Below are positions 45,312 to 59,367 of a stretch of 64,000 nt of DNA, one piece after another. The notes below the pieces were generated by a model that had not been told where the DNA came from, did not search any database, and worked only from the letters and a program-made list of their open reading frames with translations. Position 1 is the first letter of the stretch. Each line of letters opens with the position of its first letter. The position numbers were made by a program, and so were the translations under genes. Origin of the DNA: Ferrovibrio sp. MS7 (GTDB taxonomy: Bacteria; Pseudomonadota; Alphaproteobacteria; Ferrovibrionales; Ferrovibrionaceae); NCBI RefSeq assembly GCF_038404985.1, contig NZ_JBBKBA010000001.1, positions 1,702,001-1,766,000 on the forward strand. The letters run 5' to 3'.

Positions 45312-45848
45312 TCAGGCCTGGGAATCCCTGGTTTTTGCCTTTTCCACGGCGGCTTTCAGGGAGGCGCGGAGCTGTGCTTCCAGGGCACCGCCGGAACCGC
45401 TGATCTTGTGCGCCACCACTACATAGAGTGTATCGATATGAATGGAGACGATTTCCTGCTGCAGGTCGTCGAGGTCGCCATCGAAGGTCTTGAGGAAGTC
45501 ATGCAGCGACTTGGCGAATTCGGTGAGCAGGGGATAGCCGAACACGCCGCCCATGCCCTTGATCTGGAAAGCCTGCTCGCGCACATCCTCGACCAGCGCG
45601 CGGCGATCCTCCGGCGAGGCAGTGCCGGCAGCGCTGAGGCGCTCGCGCAATTCCTTGATCTGCTCGGCGGTCTCGTCCAGGAAGGCATTGGCGGACGCCT
45701 GTACCAGGGCATCCATTTTCTGGCGCAGCGCATCATCAAGCTTGAGCTCAAGGCCCTTCTTGTAATTCACCGCCTTGCGCTTGAGTTCGCCGCGGTTCGG
45801 GATGTGGACCGGGCGTGCCGGCCTTGAATCCGCCGACACTTGCATCAT
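45312..45848 (-). CDS. Histidine-phosphotransfer-like protein lacking the phospho-histidine
   Basis: A 178-residue, mainly helical protein. The block QAFQIKGMGGVFGYPLLTEF (residues 92-111) matches the HPt core A-H-x-[IL]-K-G-x-G-G-x-F-G, but the phospho-accepting His is replaced by Phe94 (TTC on the coding strand). The following SLHDFL and SIHIDTLYVVVAHKI match this HPt family elsewhere. So the fold is likely kept while phosphotransfer is not. The ATG overlaps the stop of the upstream receiver gene (ATGA), indicating coupled translation and a joint function. Confidence 0.8.
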   Translation of the reverse strand: MMQVSADSRPARPVHIPNRGELKRKAVNYKKGLELKLDDALRQKMDALVQASANAFLDETAEQIKELRERLSAAGTASPEDRRALVEDVREQAFQIKGMGGVFGYPLLTEFAKSLHDFLKTFDGDLDDLQQEIVSIHIDTLYVVVAHKISGSGGALEAQLRASLKAAVEKAKTRDSQA

Positions 45849-46336
45849 TCCTTCGCGCGGCGGTCAGCGCCATCAAACGGCAATTGCTGGCGGCGACGGT
45901 CAGGTCCGAAATAGCCGCGCACGCTGACGAAGTCGCGCGGCCGGGCAATCACCGAGACCAGACGGCGGTAGAGGCCGTCAGCGGTGAAGGGCTTGGCGAG
46001 GAATTCGGTGACACCGGCATCACGGGATTCAACCACGTATTCCATTTCGGAATTGGCGGTGAGCATGATCACCGGCAGCAGGCGGTCGGCGGAGGTTGCA
46101 TCGTTGCGGATAAAATCGAGCAGTTCGAGGCCGCTGCGCGGCTTCAGGTTCCATTCCGTGATGCAGACATCGATATGGCCCGAGCGCAGCGAACCCAGTG
46201 CGCTGTCGTAATCACGGGCCAGGCTGATCTGCACGGCACCAAGCATGGCCAGGATATCCTTGACCAGCTTGCCCATCAGCCGATTGTTGTCGACGATGAG
46301 GAAGCGCACGTGGCTGAAATCAATTTTTTCCGACAT
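45845..46336 (-). CDS. Receiver-domain protein lacking the phospho-aspartate
   Basis: A 163-residue single-domain response regulator with a GPDRRR tail. The receiver fold reads FLIVDNN (Asp16, Asn17), CITEWNLKP, MLTAN (Thr93) and FLAKPF (Lys115). In this family the fourth-strand end normally reads ITDW; here it is ITEW, so the phosphorylation site is Glu61 (GAA), and one of the two Mg-binding acidic residues is Asn17. Glu can mimic aspartyl phosphate, so it may be locked active or act by binding only. ATG 46336 is chosen by alignment; the frame extends upstream. Coupled to the HPt-like gene at 45312. Confidence 0.87.
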   Translation of the reverse strand: MSEKIDFSHVRFLIVDNNRLMGKLVKDILAMLGAVQISLARDYDSALGSLRSGHIDVCITEWNLKPRSGLELLDFIRNDATSADRLLPVIMLTANSEMEYVVESRDAGVTEFLAKPFTADGLYRRLVSVIARPRDFVSVRGYFGPDRRRQQLPFDGADRRAKE

Positions 46337-57478: not shown

Positions 57479-58783
57479 ATGGTGGAGGCTCAAGCCCCGG
57501 CGGCGGCAATGGCCCCGAATGTCCTCATCATTGGTGCCGGCATCGGCGGTCTCACCCTGGCGCTCAGCCTGCACCGGGCCGGTATTCCGGCGCGCGTGGT
57601 GGAAGCGGTGCCGAGCATCAGGCCATTGGGCGTCGGCATCAATGTGCTGCCGCATGCGGTGCGCGAACTGACCGAACTGGGCCTGGCGGAAAAGCTCGAG
57701 GCCCGCGCCATCCGTACCAAGGAACTGATCTATACCAACAAGTTCGGTCAGGAAATCTGGCGCGAGGCGCGCGGCCAGGATGCCGGCTATAGCTGGCCGC
57801 AATTCTCGGTGCATCGCGGGCGGTTGCAGATGCTGCTGTTCGAAACCGTGGTCGAGCGGCTGGGGGCAGGCGCCGTGCGCACCGATGCCGAACTGGTCGG
57901 CTTCGAGCAGGATGAGGCCGGCGTCACGGCGCATTTCCGCCGTCGTTCCGATGGTGCCGCATTGCCGCCCGAGCGCGCCAGCATCATGATCGGCGCCGAC
58001 GGCATCCATTCCGCCGTGCGGGCGCAATATTATCCCAATGAAGGCGCGCCGAAATGGAATGGTGCCGTGCTGTGGCGGGCCACCTCGGAAGCCGCGCCGT
58101 ATCTGTCGGGCCGCTCGATGATCATGGCCGGGCACCAGGACCAGAAATTCGTCTGCTACCCGATCAGCCCGGAAGCCGCCGCGCGCGGCCGGTCCGAGGT
58201 GAACTGGATCGCCGAACTGCGTTTCCCGAACGACACGCCGTGGAACCGCGAGGACTGGAACCGTCCGGGCAAGATCGAGGATTTCCTGCCCCAGTTCGAA
58301 AGCTGGAATTTCGGCTGGCTGGATGTGCCGGGCCTGATCCGCAGCGCCAATGCGATCTATGAATTCCCGATGGTGGACCGCGATCCGGTGGCGCGCTGGA
58401 GTTTCGGGCGCGTGACGCTGATGGGCGATGCGGCGCATGCCATGTATCCGATCGGCTCCAACGGCGCCAGCCAGGCAATCATCGACGCCCGCGTGCTGGC
58501 GCACCGGCTGGCGACCATCGCCGATCCGGTGGCGGCCTTGCAGGCCTATGAAGCGGAGCGGCTGCCGGCGACTTCGCGCATTGTGCTGGCCAACCGGGCC
58601 AATGGACCGGAGCGGGTGATGCAGCATGTGGAGGAGCGGGCGCCGAAGGGCTATGCCAAGCTCGACGACATCATCAGCCGCAGCGAACTCGAGGCGGTGG
58701 CCAAGGATTACAAGCTGATCGCTGGGTTCGACAAGGATGTGCTGAACAACCGCCCGTCCCTGGACGCGCGGTACGGCGCTTAA
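57479..58783 (+). CDS. FAD-dependent monooxygenase (salicylate/hydroxybenzoate hydroxylase-like)
   Basis: A 434-residue group A flavin monooxygenase. The N-terminal LIIGAGIGGLTLALSLHRAGI (about residues 16-36, cited as IGAGIGGLTLAL) binds FAD, SIMIGADGIHSAVRA is the DG motif contacting both FAD and NAD(P)H, and GRVTLMGDAAHAMYPIGSNGASQAI, cited as LMGDAAHAMYPIGSNGA, is the GD motif. Such enzymes hydroxylate aromatic acids. GGGAGGA lies 8 bases before ATG 57479; the long open frame upstream is in poor coding sequence overlapping the MarR gene and is not used. Divergent from the MarR/LIV operon. Confidence 0.9.
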   Translation: MVEAQAPAAAMAPNVLIIGAGIGGLTLALSLHRAGIPARVVEAVPSIRPLGVGINVLPHAVRELTELGLAEKLEARAIRTKELIYTNKFGQEIWREARGQDAGYSWPQFSVHRGRLQMLLFETVVERLGAGAVRTDAELVGFEQDEAGVTAHFRRRSDGAALPPERASIMIGADGIHSAVRAQYYPNEGAPKWNGAVLWRATSEAAPYLSGRSMIMAGHQDQKFVCYPISPEAAARGRSEVNWIAELRFPNDTPWNREDWNRPGKIEDFLPQFESWNFGWLDVPGLIRSANAIYEFPMVDRDPVARWSFGRVTLMGDAAHAMYPIGSNGASQAIIDARVLAHRLATIADPVAALQAYEAERLPATSRIVLANRANGPERVMQHVEERAPKGYAKLDDIISRSELEAVAKDYKLIAGFDKDVLNNRPSLDARYGA

Positions 58784-59367
58784 GCCTCTTCAGGCTCCAG
58801 CATTTCTTCTGCCACGGCCGGGCGGCGGCGGTCGCCCTGGCGCCGTGACGAGGAATGGCGGCGATCAATGTCGCCGGGCAGTTCATGGCTGGTATGGCGG
58901 CGGTCACCCAGGCGGCGCTCGCCGCGGCGGCGGCGGTCGGGGCCGACATAGCCACCGCCCTTCACCATCACGCGCTGGCCGATCAGGGCATGCATCAGGC
59001 GGCGCACCAGCACCTGCATCGAAATCGGTTTCACCACCACTTCGTTGACGCCGGCATCGCGGGCCGCCACCACTAGGGAAGCGTCCACGTCGGTAGCCAT
59101 CAGGATCACCGGCATAGCATTGTTGCCGACGCTGGTATCGCGGCGCAGCCGCTCGGTGAACATCAGCCCGTCCATCTTCGGCAGGCGGTAATCCACCAGG
59201 ATCAAAGTCGGCTCATGGGCGGCGATTTCCAGCATTGCCTGGCGCGCATCTGCGGCCAGATGCACGGCGCCGAAGCCCATGCCGTAGAGCACATCGCGCA
59301 GGCCATTGCGCGTCGCCTTGTTCTCGTCGACGACGAGGATGCTGGAGACACGGAATTGCGACAGCAT
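58780..59367 (-). CDS. Receiver-domain response regulator with Arg-rich tail
   Basis: A 195-residue protein: an intact receiver domain (ILVVDENK, phospho-Asp in ILVDYRLPKMDG, ILMATD, VVVKPI) followed by a long arginine/acidic tail starting GYVGPDRRRRGERR and ending EEMLEPEEA. No recognised output domain. The GPDRRR block matches the tail of the phospho-site-less receiver protein at 45845, which suggests one family, one with and one without the phosphorylation Asp. ATG 59367 is chosen by alignment. Convergent with the monooxygenase (4-base overlap). Confidence 0.87.
   Translation of the reverse strand: MLSQFRVSSILVVDENKATRNGLRDVLYGMGFGAVHLAADARQAMLEIAAHEPTLILVDYRLPKMDGLMFTERLRRDTSVGNNAMPVILMATDVDASLVVAARDAGVNEVVVKPISMQVLVRRLMHALIGQRVMVKGGGYVGPDRRRRGERRLGDRRHTSHELPGDIDRRHSSSRRQGDRRRPAVAEEMLEPEEA

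Follow-up and report, generated by a model that had tools for sequence, protein, structure and literature searches.

A conserved receiver/HPt gene pair of Ferrovibrio that lacks both phosphorylation residues and carries a predicted c-di-GMP-binding tail

The window analysed here, a stretch of 64,000 nucleotides from Ferrovibrio sp. MS7 (genome 4.58 Mb), contains on its minus strand two overlapping genes that encode a receiver and an HPt-like protein. Close loci with names are mostly from Ferrovibrio MAGs. The features of the pair are listed below with coordinates in the window; "the clade" means the 32 paired Glu-type receivers described further on.

45845..46336, minus strand: receiver gene, 163 aa, Cle-type pseudo-receiver by sequence, with a CheY-like domain and an arginine-rich tail (translation, Pfam)
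45312..45848, minus strand: HPt-like gene, 178 aa, CheA-P1-like helical protein without the phospho-His (translation, Pfam, structure model)
45845..45848, minus strand: ATGA shared by the receiver stop and the HPt-like start (translation)
46154..46156, minus strand: codon of Glu61, at the phospho-Asp site of the receiver (Glu in all 32 clade members)
46286..46288, minus strand: codon of Asn17, which replaces the second metal-binding acid of the receiver (non-acidic in 31 of the 32 clade members)
46022..46024, minus strand: codon of Arg105, in receiver alpha4 (Arg in all 32 clade members; modelled helix 97-107)
45857..45913, minus strand: arginine-rich tail, receiver residues 142-160 (motif from PMC5677366)
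45567..45569, minus strand: codon of Phe94, which replaces the phospho-His of the HPt-like protein (translation)
45753..45785, minus strand: N-terminal motif LKRKAVNYKKG, HPt-like residues 22-32 (32 of 32 Glu-type partners)

Translation confirmed what a preliminary description had claimed for the locus, namely the ATGA overlap, Glu61 at the phospho-Asp site, and Phe94, in the context AFQIKG, at the phospho-His site; an alignment bore out that Thr93 and Lys115 of the receiver are retained. Asn17 was also found as claimed, but the position is not conserved, being P, N, T, S, G, A or Q in 31 of the 32 clade members and Asp in one. Both proteins exceed the Pfam cut-offs (Response_reg, 4.6e-20, for the receiver; Hpt, 3e-8, for the HPt-like protein). 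The AF2 model of the receiver is a CheY fold (pLDDT 78, low in the tail) whose top Foldseek matches are CheY, and with Glu61 and Asn17 it is a receiver fold without phosphotransfer residues, that is, a pseudo-receiver. With Glu61 and no second metal-binding acid, we infer that the phosphoryl group would not be taken up. The HPt-like protein was modelled as all-helical (pLDDT 81). Its best Foldseek match, the P1 domain of CheA3 from the CheY6 complex, is weak (E 0.04, none below 0.001), and its sequence matched in the PDB the repeat protein BRIC1 (1e-5) and CheA P1 domains (0.003 and weaker). The protein thus has the helical bundle of an HPt by Pfam, model and this weak match, and because the defining His of HxxKG is absent from that fold, it is not a phosphotransfer protein. 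Having neither phospho-Asp nor phospho-His, the pair is not a His-Asp phosphorelay.

The combination of losses recurred throughout the relatives of the pair. An HPt profile matched at least 146 of 385 alphaproteobacterial genomes (1e-10), and a receiver-side search placed the Glu clade in at least 18 of 385; both numbers are lower bounds, with only the best candidates of each genome scored (mostly nine or fewer). From the profile survey we read 110 stretches, 30 given loci and 80 fetched as the best among those listed, and after merging of loci 124 distinct HPt genes adjoined a receiver on the same strand. All 32 Glu receivers were paired with a non-His HPt (Leu in 16, Phe in 13, Tyr in 2, Ile in 1). 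Asp receivers had a His HPt in 61 of 79 pairs and a non-His HPt in 18, Asn receivers had a His HPt in 11 of 11, and the remaining pairs were one Ala receiver with His and one Gly receiver with Asp. The share of non-His HPts in these counts is not a population estimate, since profile A1 was built from seven HPts, six of them without His, and profile A3 (the named loci) from four, all without His; neither profile was chosen on the receiver residue. HPt matches below 75 bits (80 in one set), receivers below 100 bits, pairs more than 450 nt apart and frames with the same C-terminal stretch were left out of the pair counts, and a further 36 HPts that had no paired receiver were kept apart. Fisher's test on these numbers gave 2e-15, a value that ignores relatedness and is not evidence of many events. 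Published rates are 0.9% for Hpt domains without His and 2.0% for receivers without Asp (PMC12632262), so that independent losses would meet in about 0.02% of pairs by the product of these rates, and the observed pairing is beyond chance.

Of the 32 Glu pairs, 18 belong to nine genomes of the genus and one to another genus of the family; a named MAG contributes one, and other families the remaining 12. The orthologous pair carries Glu and Phe together in nine of nine genus genomes, the window's own included, as the preliminary description had proposed to ask; a sequencing error or a strain-specific mutation is thereby ruled out, and both residues are lost across several families rather than in this strain alone. 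Among 14 Glu-clade genomes outside the genus, the HPt lies on the same contig in 12, non-His in 12 of 12, and two are cut by contig ends. MAGs recorded as 'Rhizobium sp. Q54' (L060) and 'Asaia bogorensis' (L065) carry the HPt type as well; these names may be wrong, since the receiver of L060 groups with family f57. A tblastn search of the HPt-like protein against plasmids gave no result.

The two sites are not always lost together, as the 18 Asp receivers with non-His HPts and the 11 Asn receivers with His HPts demonstrate. The HPt His has disappeared on more than one occasion while the receiver Asp was retained. Asp receivers beside an Arg, Met or Leu HPt were found at L104, L147 (G232), L221, L225, L085, L112, L140, L157 and L028. 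Receivers with Asn for the phospho-Asp form a separate clade (98/90; one Ala row inside) whose HPts keep the His in 11 of 11, so that these are half-dead pairs (L083, L087, L091, L092, L099, L101, L111, L122, L130, L136 and L146).

Trees of both partners point to a common history. The Glu receivers form one clade (100/99) from eight families, which was recovered in 100% of 200 bootstrap trees and was still single when the active-site columns were blanked (SH-aLRT 100; quick tree without bootstrap). The HPts of the Glu receivers, together with 17 solo non-His HPts, also form one clade (49 rows, SH-aLRT 99; quick tree without bootstrap), inside which the paired HPts are not a single group. Because the Glu receivers fall in one clade and their partner HPts in one clade, one old and faithfully kept event is the simplest account, and the double loss is probably a single event, old, coupled and maintained. 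The Glu receiver of the host's own chemotaxis cluster (L004) joined the clade at SH-aLRT 85 in a quick tree; with the active-site columns blanked, a free quick tree placed it outside. The likelihood was higher for the tree that groups all Glu receivers (p-AU 0.82), so one origin that includes L004 is not rejected. The Trp-type HPt of that cluster (L014) fell outside the clade of the other Glu-partner HPts in the quick tree, and the two may represent a second double loss. Median dN/dS within the genus was 0.16 (receiver) and 0.26 (HPt) for the window pair, and 0.25 and 0.28 for a second phospho-dead pair of the same genome. Both genes are under purifying selection, and a pseudogene is ruled out.

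The tail of the receiver, a predicted c-di-GMP-binding motif that the preliminary description had overlooked, contains YFGPDRR as a strict first repeat and FDGADRR as a second repeat with Ala for Pro. In the Glu clade the first repeat (with [DEN] at the acid) and the relaxed tandem are each present in 32 of 32 receivers and the strict tandem in 23 of 32, and Arg105, 134, 147, 148, 159 and 160 are each conserved in 32 of 32, as is Phe112; Thr93 is kept in 31 of 32. The tandem [YF]xGP[DE][RK]R is the c-di-GMP-binding arginine-rich region of the Caulobacter Cle proteins (PMC5677366). CleD-GFP binds c-di-GMP with a Kd of 86 nM, and the Cle tail works when grafted on E. coli CheY. CleD requires both the tail, with its arginines, and an Arg in alpha4; CleA D67A and CleD E70A are both functional, so that the phospho-residues are dispensable; and CleA and CleD bind FliM and affect the flagellar switch without phosphorylation (all PMC5677366). 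From the allele name E70A, the natural residue of CleD is Glu. CleD has also been imaged at the C ring (PMC7534056). Arg105 is the likely counterpart of the alpha4 Arg of CleA and CleD (R113 in CleD), being matched by position rather than by alignment with CleD. Judged by its sequence, the receiver is a Cle-type pseudo-receiver, for which binding of the ligand is predicted. The first repeat also occurs in 55 of the 61 Asp+His receivers, indicating that the tail predates the loss and does not explain it.

Both partners in the clade show residues of their own. In sets thinned to 15 Glu and 49 Asp+His receivers, the clade is marked in alpha1 of the model by L20 (14/15 vs 0/49) and D27 (15/15 vs 3/49), and alpha1 is a receiver face for HPt docking. 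In the thinned HPt sets (20 vs 51) the markers are V27 (19/20 vs 0/51), N28 (20/20 vs 2/51), Y142 (20/20 vs 0/51) and E157 (19/20 vs 1/51). The N-terminal HPt motif [LIV]x[RKQM][RK]A[VA]NxxxG, a pattern written after seeing the sequences, is present in 32/32 Glu partners, in 0/61 Asp+His, 0/18 Asp+non-His and 0/11 Asn+His pairs, and, among solo HPts, in 0/13 with His and 9/23 without.

Evidence that the receiver interacts with the HPt-like protein is circumstantial and consists of the overlapping genes, an adjacency kept in eight families though other neighbours differ, and 23 relatives (among 176 loci) whose receiver and HPt share a single open frame, all Asp-type, 20 with His and three with Leu. 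The fused frames are at L085, L098, L103, L107, L112, L117, L118, L126-L129, L131, L133, L135, L139, L140, L151, L153, L155, L156, L158, L159 and L162. A gene neighbour common to the pairs was sought in 11 loci and rejected, the window sharing only ABC-transporter matches. Glu-pair loci of families f135, f96 and f107 (L183, L185, L186 and L188) have small-protein genes in common nearby, none of which, among those scanned, reached a Pfam cut-off. The neighbours of the pairs are neither flagellar nor chemotaxis genes. FliM is present in 18/18 Glu-clade carriers of the class sample against 195/367 other genomes; it is also present in 103/128 genomes with other HPt-family members only and hence is not specific to the clade. 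GGDEF was found in 19/19 carriers searched, with search controls as the sole background. LNQ[DA]EIDSLL, a CheY-binding-like motif, is found close to the N-terminus of FliM in 5/5 inspected genomes. This context fits the motor as target without proving it.

The host genome holds several relatives, one Asp+His pair among them beside two Glu/non-His pairs. The second phospho-dead pair has Glu and Leu, in nine of nine genus genomes, and is 57% (receiver) and 39% (HPt) identical to the window pair. The intact pair, at C2:355916-356859, has Asp in SDW and His in AHELRG and is 45% (receiver) and 33% (HPt) identical. It is nearer than the receiver at 58780-59367 of the window, which had been put forward as the intact counterpart; that receiver keeps the Asp, the acidic pair and the Lys but carries Ala where the switch Thr aligns, is 29% identical, and had no HPt gene reported nearby in an HPt search of the host genome. 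Its tail is of the GPDRR type, with Arg-rich GDRR repeats. In the chemotaxis cluster of the host, the Glu receiver L004 lies beside cheD and the Trp-type HPt L014 about 2.8 kb away, and both types occur in 4/4 genus genomes read. This cluster (L177, C1:1442000-1460000) has cheY, cheB, cheR, cheW, cheA, cheY and STAS genes with a Trp-type HPt, and divergently cheD, a Glu-type receiver and a DUF2794 gene (CheA, CheD, STAS, HPt and DUF2794 named by Pfam, the others by eye). Solo non-His HPt genes are present at L010, L011, L013 and L181, one of them some 1.5 kb away from a gene that by eye was named flagellin-like.

The joint loss of both residues persists across several families, and for this reason a phosphorylation-free two-protein module, as first suggested, is the best reading of the sequences. 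More specifically, we propose, with about an even chance of being right, that the pair is a phosphorylation-independent, c-di-GMP-responsive module in which a Cle-type pseudo-receiver and a CheA-P1-like pseudo-HPt act by binding alone. The receiver, with Glu61 and no second metal-binding acid, would have lost phosphorylation, and its arginine-rich tail and Arg105 would bind c-di-GMP. The bound nucleotide would reshape the alpha4-beta5-alpha5 face, the contact site for FliM. The pseudo-HPt would have lost its phospho-His and kept docking alone, binding the receiver at the HPt-receiver interface so as to hold, deliver or insulate it, and the c-di-GMP level would set the share of receiver free for the motor. 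The loss of phosphorylation in fact, the binding of c-di-GMP, the formation of the complex, the motor as target and the direction of the effect are what we infer here, and the role of the pseudo-HPt as a docking partner follows if the c-di-GMP reading is right. The history that goes with it, to which we give slightly less than an even chance, is that a phosphorelay step became a ligand-gated protein-protein switch once in Alphaproteobacteria, with c-di-GMP in place of phosphate, that the HPt of that lineage gave up its His and turned into a dedicated docking partner marked by a new N-terminal motif, and that both proteins have stayed phospho-dead together across several families, in many cases with living Asp+His copies alongside.

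Other explanations have to be weighed against this proposal. The pair could be a dominant-negative decoy that imitates the Asp+His pair at C2:355916-356859 or CheA/CheY, ties up their partners and weakens the flow of phosphoryl groups. The plant pseudo-HPt AHP6, an HPt fold without His that is said to be kept by selection, reportedly damps phosphoryl flow in this way, and living Asp+His pairs accompany the phospho-dead ones not only in the host but also in carriers G072, G288, G193, G111, G150, G250, G331, G392 and G326. However, the clade has residues of its own and an N-terminal motif that none of the 61 Asp+His HPts shares, suggesting that it has partners of its own, and the ligand tail is kept; we regard a decoy as unlikely, perhaps one chance among a few. 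Less likely still is a constitutive pseudo-receiver that Glu61 locks in an active-like state, in a module governed by how strongly it is expressed or by the HPt-like protein on its own, with no c-di-GMP. The invariant Glu (32/32) and the retained Y-T coupling residues would suit it, as would the record of Asp-less receivers, in which Glu replaces the Asp more often than any other residue does (26%) and can, though often not by itself, imitate the activated state (PMC4395418). The tail arginines, on the other hand, are completely conserved, the tail carries the Cle motif for c-di-GMP, and CleD E70A is functional (PMC5677366), so that a Glu-fixed active receiver, as originally suggested, is not supported as the main mechanism.

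Decay, whether of a degenerating duplicate or in the sense of an HPt whose phospho-His has moved elsewhere, would be in keeping with the variable residue at the phospho-site (F, L, I or Y) and with another column that is His in 23/32 Glu-type partners. That column is Gln in 9/32, leaving no His conserved throughout the HPt clade, so a displaced phospho-His was rejected; with median dN/dS of 0.16-0.28 in addition, decay is very improbable. The pair may also provide some of the Cle-class motor regulators with a partner. The phospho-dead pair raises the questions of whether an HPt fold can serve purely as a receiver-binding partner and whether c-di-GMP took over from phosphate, and the Asp+His, Asn+His, Asp+non-His and fused relatives are a natural series for the intermediate steps.

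Among the matches listed, a description of a Cle/HPt pair was not found in the open-licence literature. The Cle proteins (PMC5677366) are, like the window receiver, CheY-like with a tandem tail and an alpha4 Arg, and CleD, by its allele name, has the same Glu at the phospho-site. The cleA gene lies in a chemotaxis operon (PMC5677366), to which the host's own Glu receiver beside cheD (L004) is comparable. The window receiver gene differs in overlapping a phospho-dead HPt gene; Hpt is not mentioned for the Cle proteins in the covered part of PMC5677366, indicating that they were studied without an HPt partner. Asp-less receivers (PMC12632262, PMC4395418) share the fold, and Glu with a non-acidic second metal-site residue is typical of them; the parts of those papers covered contain no case paired with a phospho-dead HPt. 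The CheA P1/HPt domains (PDB 3kyi, 3kyj, 1i5n) are the best Foldseek match to the model of the HPt-like protein, which shares Pfam Hpt with them; unlike them, it has no phospho-His, a free-standing gene and an N-terminal RKAVN motif. AHP6, the subject of PMC3572949, is of an unrelated lineage, is not known to have an overlapping pseudo-receiver gene and reportedly inhibits a living relay. Taken together, the receiver half belongs to a known kind, and its pairing with a co-inherited phospho-dead HPt is the new element.
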